Positions 5,938-44,717 of a stretch of DNA of 64,000 nt are shown piece by piece (the first letter of the stretch is position 1; every line of letters begins with the position of its first letter). The stretch covers positions 5,060 to 69,059 of the forward strand of contig JABBOG010000002.1 in NCBI GenBank assembly GCA_019351975.1, read 5' to 3'. The DNA is from Acidobacteriota bacterium (GTDB lineage Bacteria > Acidobacteriota > Terriglobia > Terriglobales > Acidobacteriaceae). The notes below the pieces were generated by a model. It ran no database searches. It was not told the origin of the DNA and saw only the letters and a list, made by a program, of their open reading frames with translations. A program made the translations under genes and the position numbers.

Positions 5938-6438
5938 ATGGCTAGAGACGATTACTGGGTGGCCCCGCTGCTGGAAGCGGCGTTGATCGGGACTGTCGCC
6001 CTCTGCGGCTGGCTCACCCACCAACCGCTGGTATTCGCCAGCTTAGGTCCCACAGCGTTCGAGATGGTTGAGACACCGACGCGGCCCAGCGCACGTCCAT
6101 ACAACATCATCGTCGGCAATCTGGTCGCTTTACTCGCCGCCTATGGGGCTCTGTGGCTGACTCAGGCATGGTGTGCACCCAGCGTCTCCGCACAGGGCGT
6201 ACCGCTTGCCCGCGTGTGGGCTGCGATGCTGGCAGCGCTCTTCACTGTCCTGTTCACACTGCTCTTGAAAGCGACACAACCGGCCGCACTCTCAACCACA
6301 CTGCTGGTTGCGCTCGGAGTCATGCAGACGCCAAGAGATGGGGCTCTCATCCTTGCTGCAGTTATCTGGATGACTCTGCTCGGACTGCCAGTGAGACGGT
6401 GGCGGGAAAGAAAGACGATAGCCGCAGCGCAAAGGTGA
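5938..6438 (+). CDS. HPP family membrane protein
   Basis: The 166-aa product begins with ATG 5938 behind a GGAGG ribosome-binding site. It contains the HPP-family signature 'VFASLGPTAFEM', followed by 'PSARPYNIIVGNLVALLAAY' and three more hydrophobic helices ('AAMLAALFTVLFTLLL', 'PAALSTTLLVALGVMQTP', 'LILAAVIWMTLLGLPV'). HPP proteins are small integral membrane proteins; some have been linked to nitrite transport, but the function here is unknown. It overlaps the downstream MscS-like fragment by 4 bp. It is the only apparently intact gene in this otherwise decayed patch. Confidence 0.8.
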   Translation: MARDDYWVAPLLEAALIGTVALCGWLTHQPLVFASLGPTAFEMVETPTRPSARPYNIIVGNLVALLAAYGALWLTQAWCAPSVSAQGVPLARVWAAMLAALFTVLFTLLLKATQPAALSTTLLVALGVMQTPRDGALILAAVIWMTLLGLPVRRWRERKTIAAAQR

Positions 6439-7253: not shown

Positions 7254-7453
7254 GCCATCTCCTTCTACTTCTACGGTGCAAGATCTAGACCACCACCAAG
7301 GCCTTTTGCCAATGGTGTGGCGTTCGTGATGCGGAGATAGATGCAGGATTCAGTTGAAGCGGCATGCCCTGCAAGGAAGGAACGATTAAAATATATCTGA
7401 GTGCGAGTCAACCATGCAGCACCCCCTGCATCCAAGCAAACGTGGGCAACAAC

Positions 7454-8191
7454 ATGGCAGAGAACAAAGCACGCGCACGCTGCAGGTTCATCCTTGGATG
7501 TGCGATGGCGTGTCTCGCACTGTGGGTGTTGTGCTGGCCTGCCTCGGGACAGACACCGGAGCCCAACGCCAAACCTGACGGAGGGGCAATCTTCGCCCAG
7601 AGGTGTGCCGCCTGCCACGGAGATCGGGGCCAGGGCATTGCAGCTGCGGTGACGATTGCAGGACCTTCGTTGCAGGCCGAACATGATCTGGGAATGGTGA
7701 TGACGGCGGTCGAATCAGGTCCGAGTCATATGCCCGTTTTCTCCAGGGTTCTGAAGTCCGCGCAGATTCAAGCCGTGGCCCGCTATGTGACCACAGACCT
7801 TGCGGTCATTCCATTGGCACACGGGAACATCGGTGAAGGCGGAAAAACTTTCCGCATGTATTGTGCTGCCTGCCACCGCACGGCGGTGCGCGGCGGAGTG
7901 CTGGCCTTCGCAGGACGCAATGCACCGGATCTCAAGAATAAATCCGCAGCGCTGATCGCAGGCACCATTCGGTGGGGACCTGGGACGATGCCGAAGTTTC
8001 CTTCATCCGTTCTCAGCGACGAGCAACTGGCTTCGACGGTTGACTATGTTCGATTCGTGCAGCACCCGCCGAACCCGGGAGGCAATCCTCTCAAGCAGGT
8101 AGGACCGGTGTCCGAGGGCGGCGTCGGAGCGATCGCCGTGCTGTTTCTCATTGGGATTACTGGTTGGATTGAGCGAGGAGGCAAGGGATGA
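7454..8191 (+). CDS. qcrC: Dihaem cytochrome c subunit of the bc complex (QcrC-like)
   Basis: From ATG 7454 the 245-aa product starts with a signal/anchor ('FILGCAMACLALWVLCWPAS'). It carries two haem sites, CAACH in 'RCAACHGDRGQG' and CAACH in 'MYCAACHRTAVRGG', and ends with a membrane helix ('GGVGAIAVLFLIGITGWI'). This two-domain cytochrome c with a C-terminal anchor is the QcrC form found in actinobacterial bcc complexes, where it replaces cytochrome c1 and hands electrons to the oxidase. The stop overlaps the Rieske gene start by 4 bp (ATGA). An upstream in-frame ATG at 7364 exists but would bury the signal peptide. Confidence 0.88.
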   Translation: MAENKARARCRFILGCAMACLALWVLCWPASGQTPEPNAKPDGGAIFAQRCAACHGDRGQGIAAAVTIAGPSLQAEHDLGMVMTAVESGPSHMPVFSRVLKSAQIQAVARYVTTDLAVIPLAHGNIGEGGKTFRMYCAACHRTAVRGGVLAFAGRNAPDLKNKSAALIAGTIRWGPGTMPKFPSSVLSDEQLASTVDYVRFVQHPPNPGGNPLKQVGPVSEGGVGAIAVLFLIGITGWIERGGKG

Positions 8192-9234
8192 CAGACGACG
8201 GGAAACAGCGGAAGAGTGGCCTTACAGCATTTCTCGATCTGTGCCGGGAGACGCTGGAACTCGGCGGAAAGACGCTGGATTTCCTGTCCACCGCGATGCG
8301 GCAGATGCAAGCGCCCAGGCGTCCTCCAGAGCCGCTTGCAAAGAGTGGACGTTCCGAAGACCGCGAGCTCGAAACTGAGGCGCAGATCCAGCGGCGTGAG
8401 CGAATTGGCACCGGTCTGGTCATCTGCTTTTTTCTGCTCGCTGTATTGGGAGGGATCGGATTTCTGATCGCGTATTGGTCGGGGCGAAACAATACTCAGG
8501 TGCTCGGCGGAAGCCTTGCGCTGTTCCTGTGCGGGATGGGCATCACGCTGGTGCTTTGGGCGCGGTTGCTCGTGGTCCAAAAAGAAGCGGTGGAGCAGCG
8601 GCATCCGCTGCAATCGAGCCCATTGGCGCAGAAGGTAGCGGCAAAGGCTTTCTGCGATGGCGCGCATGACATCCGCAGGCGAAGGCTGCTGGCGTGGATG
8701 GGCGTTGGCGGAGCAGGTCTATTCGGAGCGATGGTGCTCTCGCTGCTGCGGTCGCTGGGAATGTCTCCTGACAAGTCGCTGTACAGTCGGATTTGGAAGG
8801 GCGGTCAGCGCCTTGTGACCTCCGATGGAAAGCCGCTGTCGCTGAGCTCGCTGGAAACGGGAAGCATGGTCACCGTGTTTCCCGAAGATCAGATTGGTGC
8901 TGAGCGCGCACAGACCATCCTTGTACGCGTGAAAGAGCATCTCCTGCAGCTGCCATCGGAACGCGCGGGATGGGCGCCGAGTGGCTACGTTGCCTACTCG
9001 CGCGTGTGCACCCACGCGGGATGCCCGGTGGGCGAATTCGAGGCCGAGCAATCGATCCTCCTCTGCCCGTGTCATCAGTCCACCTTCGATGTCCTCCGCG
9101 CAGCAGCACCGACAGGCGGCCCTGCTGCCAGACCACTACCCCAATTGCCGCTGTACGCAGATGCGGACGGCACCCTGCGTGCAGGTGGAGGGTTCACGGC
9201 GCCGCCGGGCCCCGGCTTCTGGGGGATCTCATGA
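8188..9234 (+). CDS. qcrA: Rieske iron-sulfur subunit with three TM helices (QcrA-like)
   Basis: The 348-aa protein has three predicted TM helices (about residues 72-97, 108-130 and 170-190). A C-terminal Rieske domain follows, with both [2Fe-2S] ligand motifs, CTHAGC and CPCHQS. Three helices before the Rieske fold is the actinobacterial QcrA form; mitochondrial and proteobacterial Rieske proteins have one. The soluble domain accepts electrons from quinol and passes them to QcrC. The gene overlaps its neighbours by ATGA on both sides. The N-terminal 70 residues are a charged cytoplasmic extension. Confidence 0.92.
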   Translation: MTDDGKQRKSGLTAFLDLCRETLELGGKTLDFLSTAMRQMQAPRRPPEPLAKSGRSEDRELETEAQIQRRERIGTGLVICFFLLAVLGGIGFLIAYWSGRNNTQVLGGSLALFLCGMGITLVLWARLLVVQKEAVEQRHPLQSSPLAQKVAAKAFCDGAHDIRRRRLLAWMGVGGAGLFGAMVLSLLRSLGMSPDKSLYSRIWKGGQRLVTSDGKPLSLSSLETGSMVTVFPEDQIGAERAQTILVRVKEHLLQLPSERAGWAPSGYVAYSRVCTHAGCPVGEFEAEQSILLCPCHQSTFDVLRAAAPTGGPAARPLPQLPLYADADGTLRAGGGFTAPPGPGFWGIS

Positions 9235-10655
9235 TCACAGAGAAGATCGCGCGCCAGGCCAGTGAAGCCATCGACTCCCGTCTGCGTGCCGCAAAGTTCA
9301 TACGAACGGCGCTCAACCACGTCTTTCCCGACCACTGGTCGTTCATGCTGGGCGAGATTGCGCTTTATTCGTTCATGATTCTGGTGGTCACGGGAACCTA
9401 CCTTGCTTTGTTCTTTCACGCCAGCTCAGCCAAGGTAATTTACAACGGTTCGTACCACGCGCTGGACGGTCAGAAAGTCTCGGTCGCCTACCGCTCCGTG
9501 CTCAACATCTGCTTCGATGTGCCTGCCGGTTTGCTGGTACGCCAGATGCATCATTGGGCTGCCCTGATCTTCCTCTGGGCCATTCTCGCGCACATGGCGC
9601 GCATCTTTTTGACCGCAGCGTACCGCAAGCCTCGAGAGATGAATTGGCTCATCGGGTTGACCTTGTTGGTGCTGGCGCTGGTGAACGGATTCTTCGGCTA
9701 TTCCATGCTCGACGATCTGCTCTCAGGGACTGGCTTGCGCATTGGATACGCGATCCTTATCTCCATCCCATTGGTCGGCCCATGGCTGGCCTTTTTGTTT
9801 ATGGGTGGAACGGTTCCCAATCCGGCCACACTTCCGCGCATGTTCGCGCTGCATATCTTCCTGGTTCCTGGGTTGATCACTGCTCTGCTGGGACTTCACC
9901 TCTTCATGATCTGGCGTCAGCTGCACACGAACTATCCGGGCCCGAAACGGACCAACCGAACCATCGTGGGATCCCGGCTGTGGCCGGCCTATACGGGAAA
10001 GTCCATCGGTCTGCTCCTTCTGGTCTTTGGCGTGATTGCTGGCCTGGGCGCTTTCTTCCAGATCGATCCCGTGTGGACCTACGGACCCTATGATCCAGCG
10101 AGCACCATGGCCGGCGCGCAGCCGGACTGGTACCTTGGCTGGGTGGAGGGAGCGCTCCGCCTGTTTCCCGGTGTCAATCTGCGCCTCGGCCATTGGCTGA
10201 TTCCGGAGATCTTCTTCCCTGCCGTCCTGATGCCATCCCTGCTGTTCCTTTTCCTGTACTCCTGGCCCTTCACCGAGAAGCTATTTTCGAAGGACACGGG
10301 AGATCAGAATGTACTCCGACTGCCCTATGAACAGCCCTTTCTGACGGCCGGTGGAGCCGGGCTATTTATCTTTCTGCTGGTGCTTCTGGTCTCTGGGGGA
10401 GACGACTTTTTGGCTCTTGCGGTCGGCGGATCGGTGGTAGAGATTCGAACCATTCTTCGCATTGTCGTGTTGATTGCGCCGCCATGCGCCGCCGTGCTCA
10501 CCTACTTCATTTGCGTTCGCGTCATGCGACGTAAGGCTCTGCGCACCAGGATGACATCGCCAGAGGCGTCGGCGGAAGCCGCCGCTCCAGACGAGATGGC
10601 TCTCGAGCCCCGGCCGCCGGTGGACGTGCACGAACTTACTCCAGGAGGGGAATGA
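9231..10655 (+). CDS. qcrB: Cytochrome b subunit of the bc complex (QcrB-like)
   Basis: From ATG 9231, overlapping the qcrA stop, the product is 474 aa. It shows cytochrome b features: 'GLLVRQMHHWAALIFLWAIL' followed by 'AHMARIFLTAAYRKPREMNW' (haem ligand histidines of helix B and the start of the C-helix region), the quinol-site stretch 'GYSMLDDLLSGTGLRIG', and the helix-D pair in 'ALHIFLVPGLITALLGLHLF'. A PDWY motif ('AGAQPDWYLGW') matches the PEWY position of the Qo site. The fused single-chain form with a charged C-terminal tail resembles actinobacterial QcrB. It oxidises quinol in the membrane and pumps via the Q-cycle. Confidence 0.93.
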   Translation: MITEKIARQASEAIDSRLRAAKFIRTALNHVFPDHWSFMLGEIALYSFMILVVTGTYLALFFHASSAKVIYNGSYHALDGQKVSVAYRSVLNICFDVPAGLLVRQMHHWAALIFLWAILAHMARIFLTAAYRKPREMNWLIGLTLLVLALVNGFFGYSMLDDLLSGTGLRIGYAILISIPLVGPWLAFLFMGGTVPNPATLPRMFALHIFLVPGLITALLGLHLFMIWRQLHTNYPGPKRTNRTIVGSRLWPAYTGKSIGLLLLVFGVIAGLGAFFQIDPVWTYGPYDPASTMAGAQPDWYLGWVEGALRLFPGVNLRLGHWLIPEIFFPAVLMPSLLFLFLYSWPFTEKLFSKDTGDQNVLRLPYEQPFLTAGGAGLFIFLLVLLVSGGDDFLALAVGGSVVEIRTILRIVVLIAPPCAAVLTYFICVRVMRRKALRTRMTSPEASAEAAAPDEMALEPRPPVDVHELTPGGE

Positions 10656-10873
10656 TGTCTGGCAACTCCATAGCGATCCCTCCGCATCTTGATCAGTGTC
10701 GCGCACGCCCCCGACATGCAAACCTGGAGGCCGTCCGATGCTCACCAGGACGAGACCTGCTACGTACCATCGAGCGCCGTGTTCGCTTCGGCGCGGGTTC
10801 CAAAGTACTCGTTTGGCATACAGAGATATCTGCATCACAGACTGAACACAGCACACTTCAGGAGACCGAATGA
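10652..10873 (+). other. Possible 73-aa linking ORF filling the qcrB-ctaD gap
   Basis: A strong AGGAGGGG precedes ATGATG at 10652, which overlaps the qcrB stop. The frame runs to a TGA that overlaps the ctaD ATG (10870). Both junctions are of the type used for translational coupling. However, the encoded sequence is Arg/His/Ser-rich with no recognisable domain or membrane segment, and looks non-coding. The alternative is a 214-bp leader with its own promoter for ctaD. Confidence 0.3.
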
Positions 10874-12747
10874 GCACGCTGGCGGCAGAGGAGCAGCTAA
10901 CCAGGCTTTGGGAGACTCCCAAAACTATCTACGGATGGTTTGCGTCCGTAGACCACAAAGATCTTGGAATTCGCTACCTTACTACCGCTTTCATCTTTCT
11001 GATCATCGGTGGTGTAGAAGCACTCATCATGCGGCTTCAGCTCACCCATGCCAACGGCGCACTCCTGACGCCGGAGGCGTACAACGAGCTCTTCTCGATG
11101 CACGGCATAACGATGATCTTCTGGTATGCTTCACCGATCCTGTCGGGCTTCTCGGTGTACCTTGTTCCATTGATGACGGGTGCGCGTGACGTTGCATATC
11201 CAAGGTTGAACTCGTTCACCTATTGGTCGTTTCTGTTTTCAGGAATTTTGTTGTACATAGGTCCCTTCACGGGCCAGGCTCCGCACGCAGGCTGGTTCTC
11301 GTACATGCCCTACACCAACATCGTCTATTCGCCGGGTCATGGGATGGATTTCTATGCGCTCTCGCTCATCATGCTCGGGATCTCGACCACGGGCGCGGCG
11401 ATCAACTTCATCGCAACCATCCTATTTTTCCGCGCTCCCGGCATGGCCATCAGCAAGATGCCGCTCTTTCTCTACAGCACCCTCACCATCTCGTGCACCA
11501 TCCTCTTCGCCATGCCTGCGCTCACACTTGCATGTGTCTTCCTGGAGTTGGAGCGGCGCTGGGGCATGCACTTCTTCGGTTCGGCGAGCGGCGGAAGCCC
11601 GCTGCTCTGGCAGCAGTTGTTCTGGTTCTTCGGCCATCCCTGGGTGTACGTTATCTTCCTTCCTGCGACGGGCATGATTTCAATCATCATCCCCGTCTTC
11701 TCGCGGCGTCCCATCGTCGGCTATCCCTATGTGGCCATGTCCACGGTCCTGACGGGCGTCGTGGGTTTCAGCGTCTGGCTGCACCATATGTTCACGGTCG
11801 GCATGTCGGACCTGACGATGAGCTTCTTCAGCGCGGGCAGCATGATGATCTCTCTCTTCACCACGATCACGATCTTCGCCTGGCTGGCAACGGTGTGGAA
11901 GGGGCGTCCTGTGGTTACGACGTCCATGTTGTACGCTCTCGGCTCTGTCGCGTTGCTGGTCATTGGAGGTCTGAGCGGCGTGGTCGCCGGGATCATTCCT
12001 GTCGACTGGCAGCTGCACAACACCTACTACGTCGTCGCTCACATCCACTATGTACTGATCGGTGCGAACGTCTTTCCGGTGTTCGCGGGCCTCTACTTCT
12101 GGCTGCCCAAGATGACGGGCCGCATGATGGATGAGCGGATCGGCAAATGGAGCTTCTGGGTCATGTTCGTCGGGTTCAACGTTGGGTTCTTTCCCATGCA
12201 CATCGTCGGCCTGATGGGTATGCCGCGACGCATCTATACCTATGCAGCCAATCTCGGTCTGCAACCCATGAACGAGGTGATGACCTTCGGCGCATTCTTA
12301 TTCGGCGTCGGAATGCTTATCAGCATCGTCAACCTGTTCTACAGCCTTCGGCACGGCGAGCTTGCCGGCAACAATCCATGGAACGCCGATGGCCTGGAGT
12401 GGGCCATGTCGTCGCCGCCGCCGGACTACGAGGTCGTACGCATTCCAGCGGTCGCCACAAGGCATCCGCTGTGGGACACGTTCGACGAGGACGAAGATCC
12501 AGGCGATCTGCGCGTCCTCTCACAGGCGCGGCTTTGCATCACGTCGAACATGCTGGACGCTGTACCGCAGGCGGCCGCAACCATGCCAAACCTCTCCCTG
12601 GTTCCAATGTTTCTTGCTCTGGCCCTCTTCGTCTTCTTCCTGGCGCTTGTCTACCAATGGATGTGGGTGTGTCTGGCGGCCCTGATCCTCACCTTTCTGC
12701 TGGGCTGTACCTGGCTCTGGCCGCGGCCCATTAAGGGGCACCTATGA
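10870..12747 (+). CDS. ctaD: Cytochrome c oxidase subunit I with altered proton-channel residues (aa3 family)
   Basis: This 625-aa haem-copper oxidase subunit I keeps the metal ligands: 'FSMHGITMIFWY' (low-spin haem), 'GHPWVY' with the CuB His and cross-linked Tyr, 'LHHMFTVGM' (CuB pair), and 'YYVVAHIHYVL' (haem histidines). The D-channel entry Asp107/Asn114 ('RDVAYPRLN') is present. Unusual features are Trp258 in place of the helix-VI Glu (HPEVY becomes HPWVY, without the YS substitute) and Thr334 where the K-channel Lys is expected ('TTITIFAW' versus 'TGIKVFSW'). The C-terminus adds two helices. It reduces O2 with electrons from the CuA/cyt c subunit at 14220. Confidence 0.95.
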   Translation: MSTLAAEEQLTRLWETPKTIYGWFASVDHKDLGIRYLTTAFIFLIIGGVEALIMRLQLTHANGALLTPEAYNELFSMHGITMIFWYASPILSGFSVYLVPLMTGARDVAYPRLNSFTYWSFLFSGILLYIGPFTGQAPHAGWFSYMPYTNIVYSPGHGMDFYALSLIMLGISTTGAAINFIATILFFRAPGMAISKMPLFLYSTLTISCTILFAMPALTLACVFLELERRWGMHFFGSASGGSPLLWQQLFWFFGHPWVYVIFLPATGMISIIIPVFSRRPIVGYPYVAMSTVLTGVVGFSVWLHHMFTVGMSDLTMSFFSAGSMMISLFTTITIFAWLATVWKGRPVVTTSMLYALGSVALLVIGGLSGVVAGIIPVDWQLHNTYYVVAHIHYVLIGANVFPVFAGLYFWLPKMTGRMMDERIGKWSFWVMFVGFNVGFFPMHIVGLMGMPRRIYTYAANLGLQPMNEVMTFGAFLFGVGMLISIVNLFYSLRHGELAGNNPWNADGLEWAMSSPPPDYEVVRIPAVATRHPLWDTFDEDEDPGDLRVLSQARLCITSNMLDAVPQAAATMPNLSLVPMFLALALFVFFLALVYQWMWVCLAALILTFLLGCTWLWPRPIKGHL

Positions 12748-13370
12748 GTTCTCTCGCGACACCTCCTGTTGCACCCGAGACGCCGCACACAGGCGTCTGG
12801 CCGATCGAAGCGAACCGTGGTGTCTATGGCGTGACCATGGTCATCCTCACCGAAGCGACGCTTTTTGTCTGCCTCTTCGGCAGCTATTACTTCCTCGGTG
12901 CGGACAAGTACCGGTGGGCGGTCGACCACCCGCCCAAACTCGCCAAGGCATTCATCATGCTGGGAATCCTGTTCGCCAGCAGCCTCGTCGTCATGTGGGG
13001 CGAGCGACTCGTCGAGCAGGGGCGCTATCGGCTCGCACGCGGTGCCGTGTTCACAACAATCCTGATGGGTCTGGTATTTCTTGCGGTGCAGGCATTCGAG
13101 TACAAGGAGCACTGGAAGACGCTGACGCCGCTGACCGACTCGTACGGCTCCATCTTCTACACGATCACGACCTTCCATGCCGCGCACGTCATCATGGGCC
13201 TGCTTATGCTCGGCTATCTCTCCATCCTTCCGGACTACGGACCGACGCAGCTTCCGCCGCATCGTCCCTACCATGTGGTGGCTTTGTACTGGCACTTCGT
13301 GGATGTGATCTGGTTCTTCGTCGTCCTTCTCCTATATGTAATTCCACACTTTCAGTTCTATGGATTTTGA
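12744..13370 (+). CDS. ctaE: Cytochrome c oxidase subunit III
   Basis: The 208-aa product overlaps the ctaD stop by 4 bp. It is the short, five-helix form of subunit III (extra subunit I helices are often found with this form). It starts near 'VTMVILTEATLFVCLFGSYY' and contains the family signature 'FHAAHVIMGLLMLGYL' and the terminal 'ALYWHFVDVIWFFVVLLLYV'. Subunit III has no cofactors and stabilises proton uptake and turnover in subunit I. Its first helix retains the conserved 'LTEA.LF'. Confidence 0.93.
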   Translation: MSSLATPPVAPETPHTGVWPIEANRGVYGVTMVILTEATLFVCLFGSYYFLGADKYRWAVDHPPKLAKAFIMLGILFASSLVVMWGERLVEQGRYRLARGAVFTTILMGLVFLAVQAFEYKEHWKTLTPLTDSYGSIFYTITTFHAAHVIMGLLMLGYLSILPDYGPTQLPPHRPYHVVALYWHFVDVIWFFVVLLLYVIPHFQFYGF

Positions 13371-13371
13371 G

Positions 13372-13809
13372 ATGACAAACCCTATGAGCAGCGACCCGCG
13401 ACACGACAACGCAAGGCATCCAGAGACGCCCCCGAACAAGCGTCTATGGTTCGAATTTGCCGCGTCGGTCTTTGCGTGGCTGAGCCTCGGCAGCCTGGAC
13501 TGCGTAGTCGCGTGGCGAGCCTGCGTTCATCAGGAACAATTCGGAGGTGCAAGCTACCACCCTGGAGCTCGCGTTCTTTACTTCGTCTTGTGGATCGCGT
13601 TATTCGGGATTGCATTCCTGAGCGGCAGCATGGCCTACCGCACGTGGCGCAGGCTCTCCGATGCCAGCGGACTTCTCAGCGCGGAGGGTCGCGAGCGGCG
13701 CGAGTTCATGTCGCTCTGCGGATTATTCATAACGCTGACGCTGGGCTGCGGCTTCTTTTGGATGTGCCTGCCTCTTTTCATCCTGCAGATGTGTCTGAGG
13801 GCGCGATGA
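13372..13809 (+). CDS. Unknown three-TM membrane protein in the oxidase operon
   Basis: From ATG 13372 (2 bp after the subunit III stop) the product is 145 aa with three hydrophobic helices: 'LWFEFAASVFAWLSLGSLDC', 'VLYFVLWIALFGIAFLSGSM', and 'LCGLFITLTLGCGFFWMCLP', the last running to the C-terminus. I recognise no family. Its position between subunit III and a monohaem lipoprotein, with 1-4 bp junctions on both sides, suggests an accessory oxidase subunit (a subunit IV analogue) or an assembly factor. An earlier in-frame ATG at 13360 lies inside the subunit III gene. Confidence 0.75.
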   Translation: MTNPMSSDPRHDNARHPETPPNKRLWFEFAASVFAWLSLGSLDCVVAWRACVHQEQFGGASYHPGARVLYFVLWIALFGIAFLSGSMAYRTWRRLSDASGLLSAEGRERREFMSLCGLFITLTLGCGFFWMCLPLFILQMCLRAR

Positions 13810-14207
13810 GACAAAGACCCCGCCAGCCCGCCTTCACTCTCCTTGTTAGCTGCCTTGCGACTACTTGCTGCCTGCTCTCCGGGTGCATCGGAAGTCATCC
13901 CATGGGAGGCTATCAACCTGCGATGAGCGGCAACCCCGCTGCCGGAAAAGCTCTCATCCAAAGCTACGGATGCGGCTCCTGCCACGTCATCCCCGGAATC
14001 CGAACAGCGCGAGGCATGGTTGGGCCGCCGCTCTTTTACTACAGCCGCAGAACCATCATCGCCGGCGAACTTCCGAATACGCCCGACAACCTGGTGCGGT
14101 GGATCGAAAACCCGCCGGCTATCGAGCCCGGAACCGCCATGCCAAACCTCGGCGTTACAGACAGTCAGGCGCATGATATCGCCGCTTATCTCTACACCTT
14201 GCGATAG
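13806..14207 (+). CDS. Monohaem c-type cytochrome lipoprotein (paralogue of 6876-7253)
   Basis: The ATG at 13806 overlaps the previous stop (ATGA). The 133-aa product has a lipoprotein signal ('CLATTCCLLSGC') and one CGSCH haem motif in 'SYGCGSCHVIPGIRTARG'. 'VGPPL', 'LVRWIENPPAIEPG' and the probable Met ligand 'TAMPNLGVTDSQ' follow. It is the sister of the divergent cytochrome at 6876, sharing length and motif order. Within this operon it probably delivers electrons to the CuA/cyt c subunit encoded next, 12 bp downstream. Confidence 0.88.
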   Translation: MRQRPRQPAFTLLVSCLATTCCLLSGCIGSHPMGGYQPAMSGNPAAGKALIQSYGCGSCHVIPGIRTARGMVGPPLFYYSRRTIIAGELPNTPDNLVRWIENPPAIEPGTAMPNLGVTDSQAHDIAAYLYTLR

Positions 14208-14219
14208 CAAAGGAACTTC

Positions 14220-15257
14220 ATGGGTCGTGCTGCTAAATTCGTTGCCTCTCTACTTCCGCTGTTCCTGGCAGGCTGCGCCACGGTGCAGTCAACCTCCAAT
14301 GCGCACGGACCGGCAGCGCACAGCATCGCTCGCCTCTCCTCCGCGTTGACGATCACCTTCGTGATTACGATTCTCATCATGTGGGCTCTCCTTGCGATCG
14401 CTCTGAAGAAGAACCGAGGCAGCCTGAAGGAGCACATGCCGATCGACGTTGGCGGAGGTCAGGCATGGGTGGCGATCGGTGGAATTGCAATTCCTTTCCT
14501 TGTGCTGTCAGTCTTCTTCTTCCTTGGTCTTGACCTGCTCACTACTTTCCCGATCCATGGCGATCATGGAGCGATGAACATGGGTGCGGCGGCAGCGAAA
14601 TCCAAGCCGGACATCCTGATCATCGGCCACCAGTGGTGGTGGGAGGTCCACTATCTCGGAGCGGCGAATCAGCAGGTCATCACCGCCAACGAAATCCATA
14701 TTCCAGCACACCGCCCCGTCAACATCGAGCTCCGTTCCGCCGACGTCATCCACTCCTTCTGGGTCCCGAGTCTTCACGGCAAGGTCGATCTCATTCCCGG
14801 TGACGTCAACTTCATTCGCATCGAAGCCAGCCAGCCCGGAGACTATGTCGGTCAATGCGCGGAGTACTGCGGCAGCCAGCACGCAAACATGCACATTCTG
14901 CTTGTAGCGCAGGAGCCCGCCGCCTTCAACCAATGGCTTGCCAATCAAGCCAGGCCCGGCGTAGAACCCACCAACCCAGAGACGATGCAGGGACAACAGG
15001 CGTTCCTCGATGGCCCCTGTACCAAGTGCCACACCGTCCGCGGAACTGCGGCGGCGGGACGATTCGGTCCGGATCTGACCCATATCGGCAGCCGCAAAGA
15101 GATCGGTGCCGACTCTTTCCCAAACAACGATGGCTACCTGGAAGGATGGATCACGAACGCGCAATCCCTCAAGCCCGGATGCAAGATGCCGAAGATCACC
15201 CAGTACAACGGGACGCAGTTGCGCTCACTGGTCGCATATCTGCGTCAGCTCCAATAA
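14220..15257 (+). CDS. ctaC: Cytochrome c oxidase subunit II with fused C-terminal cytochrome c
   Basis: The 345-aa product is preceded by AAAGGAA. It has a lipoprotein-like N-terminus ('LLPLFLAGCATVQS'), two TM helices, and a cupredoxin domain with aromatic stretch 'IGHQWWWEVHYLG'. The full CuA ligand set is present: His in 'VIHSFWVPSLHGK' and the Cys/Glu/Cys/His/Met of 'CAEYCGSQHANM'. A C-terminal cytochrome c domain (CTKCH, with 'CKMPKI' as likely Met ligand) makes it a caa3-type subunit II. Here subunit II comes after I and III, the reverse of the usual II-I-III order seen in the second oxidase of this window. Confidence 0.95.
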   Translation: MGRAAKFVASLLPLFLAGCATVQSTSNAHGPAAHSIARLSSALTITFVITILIMWALLAIALKKNRGSLKEHMPIDVGGGQAWVAIGGIAIPFLVLSVFFFLGLDLLTTFPIHGDHGAMNMGAAAAKSKPDILIIGHQWWWEVHYLGAANQQVITANEIHIPAHRPVNIELRSADVIHSFWVPSLHGKVDLIPGDVNFIRIEASQPGDYVGQCAEYCGSQHANMHILLVAQEPAAFNQWLANQARPGVEPTNPETMQGQQAFLDGPCTKCHTVRGTAAAGRFGPDLTHIGSRKEIGADSFPNNDGYLEGWITNAQSLKPGCKMPKITQYNGTQLRSLVAYLRQLQ

Positions 15258-15278: not shown

Positions 15279-16409
15279 ATGGATCGCAGAGATTTTCTAC
15301 GAGCTGTGGCGATGGCAGCTCCCGCCTTTGGCATCGCGACGCGTTCAGTTGAGGCCGAATCTTACGGCGATTTGACATCGAAGACTCCAGGTTCCGGATG
15401 GCGAACGTATGAGGTGGTGACGAGCGTCAGGGTGCTCAGACCGTCTGGCCGAACCCACGTATGGCTGCCACAGCCGCTCGCTCAAAATACCGAGTTCCAG
15501 AGAACGCTTTCAAGCTCCTTGCAGTGTGAAGGAGGTAAGACTTTTTTGCATGAGGACGCGCGGACCGGCCTGAAGATACTCTGCGCCAGCTTTCCCTCGG
15601 GCGCCGCTCCGGCAATCACGACGGTGCAACGAGTGGCTACACGGGATTGGTCGGTTGATCTGAACGCAGCAGTTGAGTCTTCCACGGCACGACTGCCTTC
15701 GGTTCCGGCAGATGCTGCGAGCTTTCTAAGGCCCACCACGTATGTTCCCACCGATGGCATCGTTAAGGCGACGTCTGAAAAGATCACTGCTGGCGCGCGT
15801 ACCGACGTAGAGAAGACCCGTGCAGTCTACGAATGGATCGTCAAGAATACTTATCGCAAGCCTGCCGTACGCGGTTGCGGCGTGGGTGATATCCGGCCGA
15901 TGTTGGAGACCGGCGACCTGGGAGGCAAGTGCGCCGACTTGAACGGACTTTTCGTCGGGTTGGTGAAGGCGTCGGGCGTTCCGGCAAGAGATGTCTATGG
16001 CTTGCGCGTCGGTCGTTCGGATTTGGAATGTTCGAGTCTGGGGACGTCATCGGGTGATGTATCAAAGGCTCAGCACTGCCGCGCGGAGGTGTACCTTTCG
16101 GGTTTTGGATGGGTGCCGATGGATCCGGCGGACGTCCGAAAGGTGATCCTGGAGGAGCCCCCCGGAGATCTCTCTCTAACGGGCATCAAGGTCGAGTCCG
16201 CGAGACACCGGCTCTTCGGATCCTGGGAGATGAACTGGATTGCCTATAACTACGCTCAGGACGTATCGCTGCCTGGATCGTCGGGCCCTACACTGCCCTT
16301 CTTGATGTACCCGCAGGCAGAAACCGAGCTGGGCAGGCTGGATTGTCTCGATCCGGAGAGCTTCCGGTATTCAATCACTTCGCGCGAACTGACAGACGAG
16401 TCTAGCTGA
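15279..16409 (+). CDS. Exported transglutaminase-like protein
   Basis: The 376-aa product starts 'MDRRDFLRAVAMAAPAFGIA', a twin-arginine-type signal (RRDFLR). A transglutaminase-like core follows, with the probable catalytic Cys in 'GGKCADLNGLFVGLVKASG', His in 'HCRAEVYLSG' and Asp in 'WVPMDPADV'. Such domains act as cysteine proteases or amide-bond enzymes; the substrate is unknown. It lies 21 bp after the oxidase subunit II gene on the same strand, so it is probably co-transcribed, and it converges with the formate dehydrogenase operon. Whether it is tied to oxidase maturation is speculative. Tat export would suggest folding before secretion. Confidence 0.85.
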   Translation: MDRRDFLRAVAMAAPAFGIATRSVEAESYGDLTSKTPGSGWRTYEVVTSVRVLRPSGRTHVWLPQPLAQNTEFQRTLSSSLQCEGGKTFLHEDARTGLKILCASFPSGAAPAITTVQRVATRDWSVDLNAAVESSTARLPSVPADAASFLRPTTYVPTDGIVKATSEKITAGARTDVEKTRAVYEWIVKNTYRKPAVRGCGVGDIRPMLETGDLGGKCADLNGLFVGLVKASGVPARDVYGLRVGRSDLECSSLGTSSGDVSKAQHCRAEVYLSGFGWVPMDPADVRKVILEEPPGDLSLTGIKVESARHRLFGSWEMNWIAYNYAQDVSLPGSSGPTLPFLMYPQAETELGRLDCLDPESFRYSITSRELTDESS

Positions 16410-16420: not shown

Positions 16421-17572
16421 TCAGAACTTACGTCTGAGGACGAAGAACGCAGTTGCCAGGACGCAGATGGCACCGGCGGCTTTGGCGATCACGCGACCGG
16501 TGGACCGTTTCGCTGTGGTGGGCATCGCCACTTCCTTCGGCGCTTCGATCTCAAGTGCAAGCCGCCAGTCTCGCGCTGAAGACTTACCTGCTTGAACCCA
16601 GCCGTAGCGTGTGAAGAGGGAACCCACAATTCCGGCGCAGGCGGCGAGACGACGCAGCGCAACGCTGCGCTCAGGTAGAAACACCGAACCTATGCGAAAC
16701 AGCAGCGGTACCGGACCGGAGAGCCATGCCCCCGTGCTCACGAGTACTCCGCTGCCTCCGTGTTTGAGCGGAAGAAGCGCACGCGCGTTTGACTTTGAGA
16801 TGTCTATCTTCTCCCATGTCTCCATGGACGCGCTCAGCACACCCAGCAGATTAAGGGCTCGATTGTCTTCGTGCCCCATCAACTCAAGAATGCTCACCCC
16901 GGATTGCAGACCTGACATGCCGAAGTGCCCGGGAAGCGAATTCGCGCGCGCGTTCCAGACCGGCATTGCAGTCGTCGCCAGCAGAACCCCGGTGTAGTTA
17001 TGGAAAGGCATCCCAAAAATCACGGAACCGAATCGTCCCATGCCACGCAGCAAGTGAGAGAGCAGGTTTGCTCCCCAAAGGGCATCCATCGCGTCCGCTG
17101 CGGATGATATGGACGCAAAAACCGAGAATCCTGACAGTATCCAGGAGCCCATCGACATTGTGCTCTGCGGCTTGAACACACGAAGCATATTGAGAAATCT
17201 GCTGGATCTTCCCAGATCCGTAACGAGCAAAGCCCCGGAAAGAACGGACCCTCCAAACGCCAGCCAACGTGCCTGCTCGGCCAGCCTCTTCTCGTCTCCC
17301 AGCACGTCAGCCAGTGATCCAATGACACCTAGTGATCCGGCAGCTCCACCCACGAAAAAATAAAAGGGAATCAGTTGCGTCCACTGAGGCTCTTTTAAAA
17401 GCGGCTGTTGGTAGTAGCCGGTCTGTGGCGACGCGATCGGAAACGGGGAACCCTCAGGTCGCACTCCTGGACTTTTGACTTGCCCAGTCAACTCGGCCTC
17501 GCGGCGAATTTCGAGCAGGTGCTCCTCGCGTTGATCCACCAGCTGTTCGATCAGCATCTGCGTCTCAGACAT
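16421..17572 (-). CDS. NrfD/PsrC-like membrane subunit of formate dehydrogenase
   Basis: From ATG 17572 the product is 383 aa; GTG 17593 and ATG 17581 are alternatives that overlap the ferredoxin gene more. After a charged N-terminus come helices starting 'WTQLIPFYFFVGGAAGSLGV', the typical NrfD opening, then 'WLAFGGSVLSGALLVTDLGR' and 'MSMGSWILSGFSVFASISSA'. NrfD-type subunits bind quinone and anchor an Fe-S/molybdopterin pair without haem, unlike the haem-b subunit FdnI. It is the last gene of the fdh operon and should pass formate-derived electrons to the quinone pool. Confidence 0.88.
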   Translation of the reverse strand: MSETQMLIEQLVDQREEHLLEIRREAELTGQVKSPGVRPEGSPFPIASPQTGYYQQPLLKEPQWTQLIPFYFFVGGAAGSLGVIGSLADVLGDEKRLAEQARWLAFGGSVLSGALLVTDLGRSSRFLNMLRVFKPQSTMSMGSWILSGFSVFASISSAADAMDALWGANLLSHLLRGMGRFGSVIFGMPFHNYTGVLLATTAMPVWNARANSLPGHFGMSGLQSGVSILELMGHEDNRALNLLGVLSASMETWEKIDISKSNARALLPLKHGGSGVLVSTGAWLSGPVPLLFRIGSVFLPERSVALRRLAACAGIVGSLFTRYGWVQAGKSSARDWRLALEIEAPKEVAMPTTAKRSTGRVIAKAAGAICVLATAFFVLRRKF

Positions 17573-18404
17573 GGATTCCATCCTTCCGTCCACTGCGTGC
17601 CGCCATGAATGCAGCCGCGACTCCGGCGAGCAGGAGAAAGCCGTCGCGGGCGGCCGACTTCCATCCGTCGCGCAGATAGATGGTGGGCACCTCGGGATTC
17701 GGTGGCAAATTATACGTCTCAGGCTCGCCGCGAATCAGGAACAACGCGTGGATGCCCTTGACGCTGGTGTGCGTCGGATTGTAGATCTGCGCATCAGCCA
17801 TGCCGCGGTCCTGCAGGACGGCGAGCCGGTCGGCGGCTTTTTCTTCCATCGTCTCCAGAACTCCGAACTGAATCGACTGCGTTGGGCAGGCCTTTGCGCA
17901 TGCAGGTTCGAGTCCGACCTTTTGCCGATCGGTGCAGAAGGTGCATTTGAACGCGCGGCCATCCTCTTCGTTCTTCTGCACCACGCCGAACGGGCACGAT
18001 ATGACACAGTAGGCGCAACCGTTGCAAATGTCCGGCTGGAGAAATACGCCGCCAAACTCCGTCCGCACCAGCGCACCGGTCGGGCAGGCTTCCAGGCAGC
18101 CGGCAACCTCGCAATGCTTACAGACGTCGGAGGAAAACTCCCAGCTATTGTGGTCGGGCGAATTCCCTCCCAATCCGGGAATAGGCGTGTCTTCCACGAA
18201 CTTCACATGTCGCCAGGTCGAGGCGCCGAGCCCCACAGTATTGTCATAGGAGAAGCCGGAAAAGTTATACCCGTCAGCCTCCAGACCATTCCATTCCTTG
18301 CACGCTACCTCGCACGCCTTGCAGCCAATGCATGTGGTGGAGTCAGTGAAGAATGCGGTCTTCTTTCCAGGTTGAACTTCAAAGTTTCCCATCTTCTCGC
18401 TCAT
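17565..18404 (-). CDS. fdhB: Formate dehydrogenase four-cluster ferredoxin subunit
   Basis: The 279-aa product has four Cys clusters for four [4Fe-4S] centres: 'CIGCKACEVACKEWNG', 'CKHCEVAGCLEACP', 'CNGCAYCVISCPFG' and 'CTFCTDRQKVG' with 'CAKACP'. A C-terminal helix ('DGFLLLAGVAAAFMAAR') could anchor it. It resembles FdnH/FdoH beta subunits and wires the catalytic subunit to the NrfD-like protein. Its ATG overlaps the catalytic-subunit stop by 4 bp, so translation is coupled. Confidence 0.95.
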   Translation of the reverse strand: MSEKMGNFEVQPGKKTAFFTDSTTCIGCKACEVACKEWNGLEADGYNFSGFSYDNTVGLGASTWRHVKFVEDTPIPGLGGNSPDHNSWEFSSDVCKHCEVAGCLEACPTGALVRTEFGGVFLQPDICNGCAYCVISCPFGVVQKNEEDGRAFKCTFCTDRQKVGLEPACAKACPTQSIQFGVLETMEEKAADRLAVLQDRGMADAQIYNPTHTSVKGIHALFLIRGEPETYNLPPNPEVPTIYLRDGWKSAARDGFLLLAGVAAAFMAARSGRKDGIHV

Positions 18405-21400
18405 GTGCGCTCCTTGAGAAGCTTATTCAGTTCCTTGAGTGCTGCCGGACCTTGCTTGCGACGGCCTGGGATCAGGTTGCAGACGAGCGCCTTCGATTCC
18501 ATGATGCGCACGTTCGGGCTCTCCGAGATCGCGAGAAGATCGTTCACCACGTCTCCCGTGGTGATGCCTTTCCATCCCCAGTGATAGGGCAGCCCGACCT
18601 GGTGCACCATCTTTCCATTAACCTTCAAAGGGGCCATGCGTCCGGTCACAAGGGCCTTTGCGGAGAGCAGACCTCGTGGCGAGTAAATGGTCACCCATTC
18701 GCCATGCTTGACGCCACACATTGCAGCAAGTTCCGGCGAGATTTCAGTGAAGAGCTCCGGCTGTAATTCGGCCAGATGGCTCAGGCCGCGCGACATGCCT
18801 CCAGCCGTATGATGTTCCGTGAGCCGATAGGTGGTCAACACATACGGAAAACGCGGGTCGTCCGGAGACTTCGCATACGGATTGTCCGGGCGCTCCTTCT
18901 TGTGCGCCGGCGGATTCGTCTGCTCGGACGGATAGACAGGGTTGTGCACAAGCGATTCAAGGGGTTCAAAGTGCGTTGGCAGTGGGCCATCTTTCAAGCC
19001 ACTCGTGACGAACAACCATCCGCGACCATCGGGGTGCAGCGTAAACGGCTGGTCGCCGCTGAGCGCCTCAAGTCCACGCTTGTTGGGATCACCTTTGTAA
19101 TCAGGCGGCATATCGGGCTTGAAATCGCTGACATCTTCGCCTACCCACTTCCCTTTTTCCCCCGCGGCAGGGTCCCACCAGATGAGCTTCTTGCGCTCGC
19201 TCCACGGAGTTCCATCGGGCTTCGCGGAGGCCCGGTTGTAAAGGATGCGTGTGTCCTTGGGCCATGCAAAGCCCCATCCGTGGCCGAGCGAATCGTGCGA
19301 CTCCCTTGTATTTGGGAGGTTTTTGTCAGGAGCTGGCATGAGCCCAGCGTAGATCCAGCAACCGCACGCCGTCGAACCATCGGGCTTCAACTCGTCGTAC
19401 GTCTTGATGTGCATCTTCGTGTCCCAATGGCAGCCGTTGATCTCCGCCAGGATAGCCTCGGCGACGGGCTCCGCGATGGCTCCTTCGGTGGGATAGCTCC
19501 ACGTCAGATTGTTGATCGCAATGTTCTTCGGTCCCGGCTCCCTGGCGGCCTTCTCCTTGATACGCCGACCCAGGTGATACATGAACCATGTCTCACTGCG
19601 CGAGTCTCCCGGCGGGTCAACCGCCTTGTTATGCCACTGCACCAGACGCTGCGTATTGGTGAAGCTGCCGTTCTTCTCTGCCTGACCCGCTGCGGGCATC
19701 AGAAAGACCTCGGTCGCGATTGTTTCAGGCACCAGCTCGCCGCGTTTGACTTCAGGCGAATCCAGCCAGAAACTTGCTGTTTCGGTTTCCACCATGTCGC
19801 GCACGACCATCCACTTCAGGTTCTGCATGGCGGAGCGTTGCAGTCGGCCGTTGGGTGCGCCTACTGCGGGATTCTGGCCCATGACGAATAGACCTTCCAT
19901 CTTTCCGTCCGCCATATCGAGCCAGTAACCCAGTTCCGAGTGGTCGCCCGTTACCCGCGGCATCCACTGAAAGCCCCACTCGTTCTCAGCCGTGGCCGCG
20001 TCGCCGTACCAGGACTTCAGCAGCGAGATGATGTACGCGTCAAAGTGCGCCCAGACACCTGCCTTGTCCGAATGCTTGTCGATGTATTTGCTGAGGCTCG
20101 TCGAATCATCCTCGAAGAAGGGCATCGCAAGGTAGCCGGGCAGGATGTCATAGAGCGTAGGAATATCGGTAGAGCCCTGAATCGAGGCATGTCCGCGCAG
20201 CGCAAGTATGCCGCCGCCGGGTCTTCCCATATTCCCCAGCAAAAGCTGCAGGATGGCTGCGCTGCGAATAATCTGAACACCGGTCGAGTGATGGGTCCAT
20301 CCCACGGCGTAGCAGATCGCGGCGGTCTTGTCCGGCCCAGAAGCACTTGTGAATGCTTCGGCCACCTCGAGGAACACATGCTTCGGCATTCCGCAGCCTT
20401 GCTCCACCATCTCCGGCGTGTATCGGGAGAAGTGCCGCTTCAGCACCTGGAAGACGCAGCGGGGATTCTGGAGGGTGGGATCGGTGGTGTACTGGTGCGT
20501 ATTCCCGGCTTCACCGCCGCGATCCTTGCCGTGGCCGCCATCGGCGGGATGATGCCCAGGCGCAGGCTGCGAAGGGTGACGCTTCTTCTCAGAGCCCTCA
20601 TAGAGCCAGGTATCCGGACTGTACTCCTTCTTCTCCGCGTCCCATCCCGAAAACAGTCCATCAAGATCCTCGGTATCGCGATAGTCCTCGCGCAGGATTG
20701 TCGATGCGTTGGTGTACGTGAGGACGTAGTCCTTAAACCACTTATCATGCTCGATCGCGTAGTGAATCAGACCGCCAAGGAAGAGAATATCTGTACCGGC
20801 GCGCACAGGCGCCCAGATATCCGCGCTCGCTGACGTGCGCGTAAACCGCGGGTCAACGTGGATGACCTTGCCACCGCGCTCCCGCGCTTCCATCACCCAT
20901 TGAAAGCCCACCGGATGCTGCTCTGCCATCGAGGAGCCCATAATCATGATGGCGTCGGAATCTGCCAGCGAGGTAAGTGCCGTTGTGGCTCCGCCCCGTC
21001 CTACCGTGGTGCCCAGACCGGGCACCGTAGAGCTGTGTCAAATTCGGGCCTGGTTGCTGACGCAGACCAAGCCGAGACCTCCGCTAAACAGTTTTTTGAT
21101 CAGGTAGTTCTCTTCGTTGTCCAGCGTCGCTCCGCCCAGATGAGCCACCTTCGTGGTGTTCATCACCGCGCGGCCCTCTTTCGACTCGACGAAGCTGTTG
21201 TCACGCGACTCCCACAGCCGGTCGGCAATCATGTCCATCGCCTGCTCCAGCGGCAACTCTTCCCAATCCGTTCCGTAAGGCTTGCGGTACTTCACCTTCT
21301 CAAGTCGATTGGGAGCAGTGTGCAACTGGAAGGTGTTGGCACCCTTGGGGCACAGGTGCCCGCGCGAGATCGGCGAGTGAGGGTCACCCTCAATCGAAAT

Positions 21401-21598
21401 AAGCTTGCCTTCCTTGTGATAAATCATCTGCCCGCAACCGACCGCGCAGTAGGGGCAGATGGACCGCGCAACATCAGCGCCTGCCGTCTTCGGCTGCAGC
21501 GTTCTCGTCCGCTCACTCCAGGACTCAGAGCCGTTCCCATTCGAGCGATTTTTGATCTGCTGATACACAGGCCACTTCGATAAAAGTTCCTTGATCAA
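18401..21598 (-). CDS. fdhA: Formate dehydrogenase catalytic subunit, selenoprotein (in-frame UGA = Sec187)
   Basis: Two abutting frames join through one TGA (21038-21040). Reading it as Sec gives 'NQARI-U-HSSTVPGLG', the exact active-site context of formate dehydrogenases. The 1065-aa product has an N-terminal [4Fe-4S] motif 'CPYCAVGCGQ', bis-MGD molybdopterin domains and a C-terminal 'FPYVLTTYRLTEHHTAGG' domain. It oxidises formate to CO2. The start is TTG 21598, fixed by AAGGAGG 5 nt upstream. No Tat signal is visible, so the subunit may face the cytoplasm. A His/Gly-rich insert (about 20495-20608) precedes the conserved 'TTDPTLQNPRCVF'. Co-location with selA/selB/selD/selC supports Sec decoding. 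Confidence 0.96.
21008..21040 (-). promoter_or_regulatory. Bacterial SECIS element with UGA codon
   Basis: Directly after UGA (21040-21038) and an 11-nt spacer, GGTGCCC pairs perfectly with GGGCACC around the loop GGTCT. The spacing and the GGUCU apical sequence match what I recall of the Escherichia coli fdhF SECIS, whose loop is AGGUCU. SelB-GTP-Sec-tRNA binds this hairpin to recode UGA. The element lies inside the coding sequence, as usual in bacteria. Confidence 0.93.
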
Positions 21599-21733
21599 GG
21601 GATCCTCCTTCGGACCGCACCGTTCGCGGAGACAACTATGTCGCTATAGGACGCAAGCTCGAGGAAAAGGGTTGTGACGCTCAAATCCGGCAAGCCGCCG
21701 ATCCATCTGGCCGCTCCCGCGAGCCAATCTTGG

Positions 21734-25104: not shown

Positions 25105-26222
25105 CCCCAGCTCCTCGCATCGGTCGGTCCGGAGGTCAACTCGATCCATGAATCTCCCCGCGTGGCAGGATTCGCCGCGAGCACGCAGCCAATTCGGGCC
25201 GCAGGCAGGCCCGAGGCCTTGAGTTCCGCCAGGAACGGCCCGGCGTGATCTGGACTGACGGCCAGCAAGAGCCCTCCCGCCGTCTGCGGATCATAGAGAA
25301 GCGATCGCACTTCGTCGGAAATGTACTCATCCCTCATGTCTTTCACCACGCACTGTGCGAAGTCGCGGTTCGATAGCAAGCCTGCCGGGACTGCGCCGAG
25401 CCGCACCGCTTCGATAGCTCCCTGGAGCAGCGGAATCGCCGATACGTCGATCAAAAGTCGCACGCCACTTCCGAGAGCCATCTCCCGTGCATGGCCCATC
25501 AGCCCAAACCCTGTAACATCTGTCACCGCGTGGATCTCGTAGGTGCGTGCCAGATGGATTCCGGTTTTGTTGAGGGTTGTCATGGAGCGCACGGCCCCCT
25601 CCACCCACTCCGGCATAGCCTTTCGCTGCTTCAGCGCCGTCGTGATCACGCCCGTTCCGATCGCCTTGGTCAGCAGCAGAACATCGCCCGCCTGAGCCCC
25701 CGAATTCGTAAACACCTCCTCGGGATGAACGACGCCGGTTACGGCATAGCCGAACTTCATCTCTACGTCGCGAACGCTGTGGCCGCCGGCCACTGTGCAT
25801 CCGGCCTCGCACATCTTCGACAACCCGCCGAGCATTATCTTTTCGAGCACATCCATATCGCCGTCTTGAGGAAAGCACACCAGCGAAAGTGCAGTCACAG
25901 GTTTGCCGCCCATGGCATACACATCGCTCAGCGCGTTTGTTGCGGCGATCTGACCGTAGGTATACGGATCGTCCACCATGGGCGTAAAAAAGTCGACGGT
26001 CTGGACTATCGCCAGGTTCGGAGCGATCCGGTAGACTCCTGCGTCGTCGGCCTTATCGAAACCTACCAGCACGTTTGGATCGTGCTGAGCAGGCAGTCGA
26101 GCCAGCACAGAATGCAGCAGCCCAGGCGGCAATTTGCTGGCACAGCCACCAGCTTTCACCTGTTCAGTAAGTCGCACCGGCTCAGCAGTAACTAAGTCCG
26201 CGGTCAGATTCTCACTCTTCAT
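25101..26222 (-). CDS. selD: Selenide, water dikinase (selenophosphate synthase)
   Basis: The 373-aa protein begins near 'LTEQVKAGGCASKLPPG', where the catalytic position is Cys rather than Sec and the Lys two residues later is present. ATP-binding Gly-rich segments follow ('VGFDKADDAGVYRI', 'DVYAMGGKPVTALSLV', 'TGFGLMGHAREMA'). It makes selenophosphate from selenide and ATP. It leads the minus-strand selD-selA-selB series and stands 54 bp from the divergent selC gene, so the shared 26223-26276 interval must hold both promoters. Confidence 0.96.
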   Translation of the reverse strand: MKSENLTADLVTAEPVRLTEQVKAGGCASKLPPGLLHSVLARLPAQHDPNVLVGFDKADDAGVYRIAPNLAIVQTVDFFTPMVDDPYTYGQIAATNALSDVYAMGGKPVTALSLVCFPQDGDMDVLEKIMLGGLSKMCEAGCTVAGGHSVRDVEMKFGYAVTGVVHPEEVFTNSGAQAGDVLLLTKAIGTGVITTALKQRKAMPEWVEGAVRSMTTLNKTGIHLARTYEIHAVTDVTGFGLMGHAREMALGSGVRLLIDVSAIPLLQGAIEAVRLGAVPAGLLSNRDFAQCVVKDMRDEYISDEVRSLLYDPQTAGGLLLAVSPDHAGPFLAELKASGLPAARIGCVLAANPATRGDSWIELTSGPTDARSWG

Positions 26223-44715: not shown

Positions 44716-44717
44716 CG

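Follow-up and report, generated by a model that had tools for sequence, protein, structure and literature searches.

The two-channel A-type oxidases have Asp132 and Glu286 at the ends of one proton channel and Glu101 of subunit II and Lys362 at the ends of the other, and mutating these ends costs activity (PMC8239185). The canonical K channel of subtypes A1 and A2 consists of Lys354, Thr351 and Ser291 (Pd; PMC3084760, Table 2), and in the B and C families the only channel is K-like (PMC8239185, PMC8079940). Mutants that lack the K-channel Lys still perform the first reduction step (PMC8079940). In 2020-2021 Degli Esposti and co-workers sorted the K- and D-channel variants found in family A into classes, and for the archaeal K-channel variants seven losses were counted under a hypothesis that the authors themselves reject (PMC8239418). 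Those variants differ from the enzymes described here in being archaeal; three Thermoplasmata rows in our set carry Leu at the Lys site and keep the Glu. Part of the channel-loss finding presented below may already be tabulated in that paper or in the 2020 paper that it cites.

Two described gene clusters resemble the locus. The COX operons that Degli Esposti et al. (2014, PMC4013037) call type a-II are proteobacterial, often include a PQQ dehydrogenase and encode a long COX1, and the paper names Rhizobium, Sinorhizobium and Mesorhizobium for them; the plasmid-borne genes of what we call the E branch come from the same genera and have the same gene neighbours (our tree was built from other sequences than the named type a-II ones). 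Type a-II COX1 is, however, reported with a fused COX4. In the window, i.e. the whole stretch of 64,000 nucleotides of Acidobacteriota DNA analysed here, the small gene is separate and a PQQ dehydrogenase is missing. The XoxF3-Cox clusters of Acidobacteria and Gemmatimonadetes comprise xoxF3, xoxG, xoxJ, CoxI-III, CtaG and a protein of ~110 aa (PMC10875860), a set which, compared by gene content, resembles the E-branch neighbourhoods, but the window copy comes with a bc complex, and XoxF is absent both beside COX1 and in the genome. The first-pass annotation left room for membership in an already characterised clade. The resemblance to these two systems stands, while channel or pumping data were not found for the clade: the main text of PMC4013037 has no match for 'channel' or 'proton pump', and the accessible sections of PMC10875860 hold no analysis of oxidase residues. 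The coxMNOP oxidase of Pseudomonas pseudoalcaligenes KF707 has been deleted and was found to be weakly expressed (PMC5492768). A search of the open-licence literature (main texts) found no link of the operon clade to missing channels, to a Trp at the Glu site or to the subunit II Glu, and no measurement of pumping, rate or electrogenicity on a clade member. Within that literature the type a-II operons and the XoxF3-Cox clusters are already in print, and no paper was found that ties them to channel loss.

The first-pass annotation described subunit I of this locus (Table 1) as lacking both the helix-VI glutamate and the K-channel lysine, with all metal ligands, the cross-linked Tyr and the D-channel residues Asp107 and Asn114 kept, and we could confirm each of these points. 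The translation reads F254-G255-H256-P257-W258-V259-Y260 and F330-T331-T332-I333-T334-I-F-A-W (both inside 11635-11883), and in alignments with aa3-600 and a mycobacterial subunit I, ungapped through both sites, the HPEVY Glu is matched by W258 and the TGxKxF Lys by T334. The six His ligands (H78, H256, H305, H306, H391 and H393) and Y260 are retained, as are D107, N114, N179, S271 and T331. Phe-Gly instead of Tyr-Ser precedes HPWVY, so the enzyme has the solution of neither A1 nor A2, and proton delivery must therefore differ from that of textbook A-type enzymes, as had been claimed. The two altered sites correspond to Rs E286 and Rs K362. An AlphaFold2 model of subunit I (34-row alignment; mean pLDDT 88.6, pTM 0.91) superimposed on the R. 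sphaeroides oxidase 2gsm_A with Z 45.4 and rmsd 1.4 over 499 residues, and on E. coli bo3 with Z 47.8 and rmsd 2.1 over 583 residues; the predicted fold is ordinary.

Table 1. Features of the oxidase locus and its surroundings (positions in the window)
Feature	Position	Strand	Evidence
Dihaem cytochrome c (QcrC-like)	7364..8191	+	PF13442, 2 stretches
Rieske protein (QcrA-like)	8188..9234	+	PF19297, PF00355
Cytochrome b (QcrB-like)	9231..10655	+	PF13631, PF00033
COX1 (subunit I, 625 aa) of an A-type-like oxidase, W branch	10870..12747	+	translation; PF00115, 475.3 bits against a cut-off of 34.8
Asp107, D-channel entry, kept	11188..11190	+	22/22 W-branch rows
Asn114, D channel, kept	11209..11211	+	22/22 W-branch rows
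Asn179, D channel, kept	11404..11406	+	22/22 W-branch rows
Trp258 at the helix-VI Glu site	codon 11641..11643	+	translation and alignment; W in 22/22 W-branch rows
Thr334 at the K-channel Lys site	codon 11869..11871	+	translation and alignment
Subunit III (COX3)	12744..13370	+	PF00510
Small membrane protein, subunit IV position	13360..13809	+	no Pfam match; relatives have homologues at this place
Monohaem cytochrome c	13446..14207	+	PF00034, residues 165-252
Subunit II, CuA motif and C-terminal haem c (caa3 type)	14220..15257	+	PF00116, PF00034; one CxxCH
Subunit II Ala85, aligned with the K-channel entrance Glu of canonical enzymes	14472..14474	+	subunit II alignment
A2-type COX1, Lys kept	41984-43660	-	YSHPAVY motif

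By descent the enzyme belongs to family A, since subunit I nests among A-type sequences in a clade with 100/100 support and the ligands and Tyr are present in 22/22 rows; its score against NCBIfam CtaD_CoxA (657.1 bits) lies slightly below the cut-off of 670.75. Subunit II carries CuA and a haem c, which makes the enzyme a caa3 type. With A1 and A2 enzymes it has in common the fold, the six His, the Tyr, CuA and the D-channel entry, and it differs from them in having no helix-VI Glu, no Tyr-Ser, no K-channel Lys and no subunit II Glu. It falls into neither subtype, as the Glu that defines A1 is Trp in 22/22 rows and the site of the A2 Tyr-Ser directly ahead of HP has F254 in 22/22. Nor is the canonical K channel present, with Lys absent in 22/22 rows and the subunit II Glu in 19/19, and with Thr/Ser331 and Ser271 kept. 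Assignment to family B was rejected, because the sequence is far from ba3 (41 bits, against 475 for aa3-600), residue 271 is Ser and not Tyr, and the D-channel residues are kept. An NO reductase was likewise rejected: the cNOR/qNOR motif is H-H-x-Arom-Arom-x17-E (PMC3084760), and the window's subunit I reads H305-H306-M-F-T, with the second aromatic missing and Tyr260 kept.

Relatives were collected with the peptide patterns [MI]TMIFWY and LWQQLFW and from the genomes of one family and one phylum and from plasmids, so members elsewhere are under-sampled. A pattern scan across 84,980 species genomes gave 44 loci, 20 with HPWVY (L059-L076, L085 and L089) and one, L101, a fragment that stops short of the site. 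The HPWVY carriers in the scan were Acidobacteriota, the Gammaproteobacteria Modicisalibacter luteus, Methylophaga and Steroidobacteraceae, and one MAG each of Gemmatimonadetes, Alphaproteobacteria and a lineage labelled Actinomycetes. Twelve plasmid regions, sampled out of 937 matching records, divided evenly between HPWVY and HPEVY (six each), the former on plasmids of two Paraburkholderia, Caballeronia, Methylocella tundrae, Methylocystis iwaonis and Mesorhizobium sp. INR15. When 150 genomes of the window's own family were searched, four homologues at 65% identity were found, all with HPWVY. The best matches in three other genomes of the same genus were far weaker (E 1e-162, 3e-164 and 5e-114 vs <1e-286 for the 65% homologues), and the gene is thus patchy. 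The full-length set of HPWVY enzymes (the W branch) consists of the window and 21 relatives, 15 of which are 55-71% identical to the window subunit I and six, on plasmids, 50-55%. Trp occupies the Glu site in all 22, and decay or sequencing error was ruled out by this conservation.

In a maximum likelihood tree of 65 rows (the 87 available less 22 that were near copies or had long branches; support given as bootstrap/SH-aLRT) the 21 HPWVY rows formed a single clade (100/99). Its sister, at 99/93, is a COX1 from an Actinomycetota (L087, starting at 3955) that reads HPIVY and carries Thr in place of the Lys. HPIVY is a third state of the Glu site. The E branch is a sister clade of 24 rows (98/93) with HPEVY, in one case HPDVY, and Gln for Lys. 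Together the W branch, the E branch and L087 make up one clade of 46 rows (100/100), which groups with ordinary A1 rows of Acidobacteriota and Bacillota at 100/98, the root not being inferred. A quicker tree of 74 rows gave the same groups, with SH-aLRT of 99 for the union and for the W branch and 88 for the E branch. These trees are most simply read as showing that the Lys was lost once, at the base of the clade, and the Glu afterwards on the W side. The channel loss predates the window's genome and extends over two subunits. The Thermoplasmata rows (L095-L097), A-type COX1 sequences with Leu at the Lys site and the Glu kept, lay apart from the W and E branches in the 74-row tree and by their placement represent a separate loss of the K-channel Lys.

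We compared the channel residues on full-length rows (22 W, 31 E, 26 A1 and 4 A2, with L095-L097 outside the E set; the partial loci L070, L074, L076, L085, L087, L089 and L100 were excluded and L101 was too short to enter). The Lys site holds Gln (14), Ala (7) or Thr (1) in the W rows, Gln in 31/31 E rows and Lys in 30/30 A1/A2 rows; Thr is also seen in the partial relatives L070 and L074. The Glu site is Glu in 30 E rows, Asp in one, Glu in 26/26 A1 rows and Ala in 4/4 A2 rows, vs Trp throughout the W branch. Directly ahead of HP, the W rows have F254 without exception, followed by G255 in 17 and A255 in five. Each of the six His ligands and Tyr260 is found in 22/22 W rows. The entry Asp107 is present in 22/22 W rows, in 25/26 A1 rows and in only 4/31 E rows (Asn in 22), and Asn179 in 22/22 W and 30/30 A1/A2 rows vs 0/31 E rows (Glu in 18). 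Asn114 and S172 are also invariant in the W rows, and set against the E branch the four sites look maintained in the W branch. N96 of the D channel is gone in 9/22 W rows, the window among them. S271 and Thr/Ser331 are each kept in 22/22 W rows; the position after S271 (I272 in the window) is Glu in 28/30 canonical rows and in few clade rows, with Met (12), Asp (6) and others in the W rows and mostly Thr in the E rows. Polar residues gained by the W branch include Y86 (22/22), T174 (21/22), T206 (22/22), T373 (21/22) and N400 (22/22), Y86 and T174 being W-specific. Charges gained in the helices, counted when present in >=60% of W rows and <50% of canonical rows, were found at 35, 69, 186, 226 and 230, none of them within 25 residues of 258 or 334 in sequence. 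R35 and R/K186 are common to both branches, E69 has Asp as its E-branch counterpart and is also found in 11/30 canonical rows, and E226 and R230 occur in part of the W branch. A compensating acid or Lys nearby in subunit I, the finding that would have spoken against the first-pass annotation, was therefore rejected, as all helix charge gains are remote in sequence.

The subunit II alignment extends the loss to the entrance of the K channel. The entrance Glu is present in 13/13 A1 and 4/4 A2 rows and absent from all 19 W rows and all 21 rows of a set termed E_noK (which includes two Thermoplasmata rows, L095 and L096, outside the W+E clade), and none of these 40 K-less rows has an acid within three columns of it. 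In this count L087 (Val) and L100 (Glu) belong to no group, and seven duplicates were dropped. Judged from the two alignments, the K channel is stripped of key residues in two subunits, near both ends.

The E branch (L010-L020, L022, L026, L031, L035-L043, L077, L078 and L107-L112; HPEVY, or HPDVY in L022) includes genes on plasmids of R. etli (p42b), S. medicae and M. ciceri. Its D side is remodelled: position 170 is Glu in 31/31 E rows vs Gly in 29/30 canonical rows, position 92 is Glu in 21/31 and Gln in 8/31, and position 179 is Glu in 18/31, in a part of the alignment where S. medicae and M. smegmatis pair without gaps. The W branch has no acids of this kind. Position 92 presumably lies a single turn of the helix away from the D-channel residue Asn96. 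We take 170-179 to be on helix IV, lining the D channel; given these locations the acids look like a rebuilt D channel. In R. sphaeroides a carboxylate in the D-channel neck (N207D) is said to decouple pumping.

In the W branch the gene order COX1, COX3, small membrane protein, cytochrome c, PQQ dehydrogenase, MoxJ-like, cytochrome cL-like, COX2 recurs, and many Acidobacteriota and two gammaproteobacterial members have the dehydrogenase inside this COX1-to-COX2 stretch. In L061 it matches the NCBIfam methanol/ethanol family (621.4 bits, cut-off 480.05), and the next protein matches the quinoprotein-associated binding protein (281.9 bits, cut-off 212.15). A PQQ dehydrogenase of this family, most often accompanied by a binding protein and a cytochrome, adjoins 28 of 46 clade loci (W 16/27, E 12/19) vs 0/15 canonical loci, where 6 of the 11 W misses (L062, L067, L069, L076, L085 and L101) and one of the seven E misses (L048) fall on contigs that end too early, and the 27 W loci do not amount to 27 genomes because L070 with L101 and L062 with L074 are contig pairs of one MAG each. 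Five W loci have sufficient flank and no PQQ dehydrogenase (L060, L063, L104, L113 and L114). Three plasmid loci without one have a formate-dehydrogenase-like or sugar-oxidising gene nearby. This association suggests that the clade probably began as a dedicated oxidase for the dehydrogenase, and it favours the 'specialised oxidase' that the first-pass annotation had offered as one outcome. In L059 the Cys-Cys pair of the dehydrogenase (10329-12182) is replaced, AFRDVVDRG vs ACCDVVNRG in L061.

The window has no such gene beside its COX1. TIGR03075 gave 0 matches in its genome (95.1% complete), vs full-length ones in G145, G041 and G125, and a separate search, run without a positive control, was also empty, so that a PQQ alcohol dehydrogenase elsewhere in this genome was rejected. 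Neither was one found anywhere in G033, the genome of the W carrier L063. QcrC, Rieske and cytochrome b genes stand upstream of the oxidase both in the window and in L059, and L060 has a partial QcrC-like gene on the opposite strand where its contig begins. L059 has a PQQ dehydrogenase, and L060 and the window have none adjoining COX1. We infer that the window enzyme was re-wired from the alcohol dehydrogenase to the bc complex. The listed start of the monohaem cytochrome c overlaps the preceding gene, and its real start is probably more internal. Directly 3' of subunit II lies a transglutaminase-like protein (15279-16409, by eye), and an HPP-family membrane gene (5938-6438, PF04982) recurs near the oxidases, upstream of COX1 in L073 and L085.

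Four COX1 genes are present in the window's genome, namely the W copy, an ordinary A1 (contig 100), the A2-type gene and a divergent fourth (contig 28) with HPEVY and the Lys kept; the W enzyme is thus an extra oxidase, not the sole one. Around the A2-type gene (locus 41984-45659, minus strand) we noted by eye subunit II, subunit III and an SCO-like gene, and ahead of it putative genes for alternative complex III (45741-48666, by eye). At 17565-26222 (minus strand) formate-dehydrogenase-like iron-sulphur and catalytic subunits stand beside SelB-, SelA- and SelD-like genes (by eye), and the catalytic ORF seems to start mid-protein, which suggests a selenocysteine TGA.

Taken together, the sequence comparisons show a caa3-type oxidase from a conserved clade that is nested among A-type enzymes and has no K channel, and the tree points to a single ancestral loss of that channel. 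We regard a single D-type proton route with little or no pumping as the most likely mechanism, belief and doubt being evenly balanced. The window's enzyme would most likely receive its electrons from the QcrCAB-like bc complex encoded next to it, via the c haems to CuA, and O2 would be reduced at the haem a3-CuB-Tyr site, whose ligands are intact. The chemical protons would enter from the cytoplasm by the lower D channel, along D107, N114 and N179 and then S172/T173/T174, and would reach the active site along water past Trp258, with no carboxylate as a relay; such an enzyme would be electrogenic and pump few or no protons. D-channel retention is, however, equally expected of a full pump, and the loss of N96 in 9/22 W rows and a dehydrogenase link that is not universal also speak against the explanation as a whole. 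The K channel may besides matter less than this explanation assumes, as mutants without its Lys still carry out the first reduction step (PMC8079940). A full pump with a new, carboxylate-free gate, in which Trp258 and ordered water replace the Glu as the A2 tyrosine does, would fit the invariance of D107, N114 and N179, and A2 enzymes illustrate that the Glu is replaceable (PMC3084760; four A2 rows here). We nevertheless consider it rather unlikely, because the W rows have no Tyr-Ser and no new acid close by in sequence, and the pumped protons would have to manage without a K channel.

Residues that could make up a lysine-free K route of the B-family kind, from T334 over T331 and S271 to Tyr260, are partly in place: S271 and Thr/Ser331 are strictly kept, and B-type enzymes have Thr for Lys (PMC3084760, Table 2), as do the window, L070 and L074. 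Such a route is improbable when 21/22 full-length W rows have Gln or Ala instead of Thr and the subunit II entrance Glu is gone from all 19. PQQ dehydrogenases of the methanol/ethanol family are periplasmic. Hence the shared operon and a channel anatomy altered in both branches would agree with periplasmic proton uptake, which would make the oxidase a non-electrogenic electron sink beside a proton-releasing dehydrogenase; the strict retention of cytoplasmic D-channel residues in the W branch would then be unexpected, and this seems to us quite improbable. That two residues regarded as essential are missing might also indicate an enzyme that is non-functional or repurposed for NO or peroxide reduction, an idea we give very little credence, given that the six His and Tyr260 persist in 22/22 W rows, the gene has been conserved in several phyla, CuA and haem c are retained and neither NO-reductase motif of PMC3084760 is matched.

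A bolder reading concerns the clade as a whole. On this reading a multi-phylum A-type clade would run on one remodelled D-side route with no K channel and would have reached two solutions, a proposal that is possible but on balance doubtful. The E branch would have moved carboxylates into the helices that line the route and given up the entry Asp in most of its members; the W branch would have retained that Asp and used hydroxyl residues, with Trp at the position of the gate Glu. If true, the clade would mirror the B and C families, in which the K-like channel alone is kept.

The case for two channels and a gate Glu in A-type oxidases rests chiefly on mutants in which activity or pumping is lost. 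In this clade, functional-looking oxidases without the K channel or the gate Glu have persisted in evolution, in culturable bacteria among others: Methylocella tundrae T4 (plasmid p1) and Modicisalibacter luteus DSM 23508 carry W-branch enzymes, and Rhizobium etli CFN 42 (p42b) an E-branch one. This conserved and largely unstudied clade is therefore a natural experiment on what a proton-pumping oxidase needs, as one proton entrance is gone and the key acid of the other is gone as well. Alcohol oxidation via such operons may end on an oxidase of lower energy yield than has been assumed.
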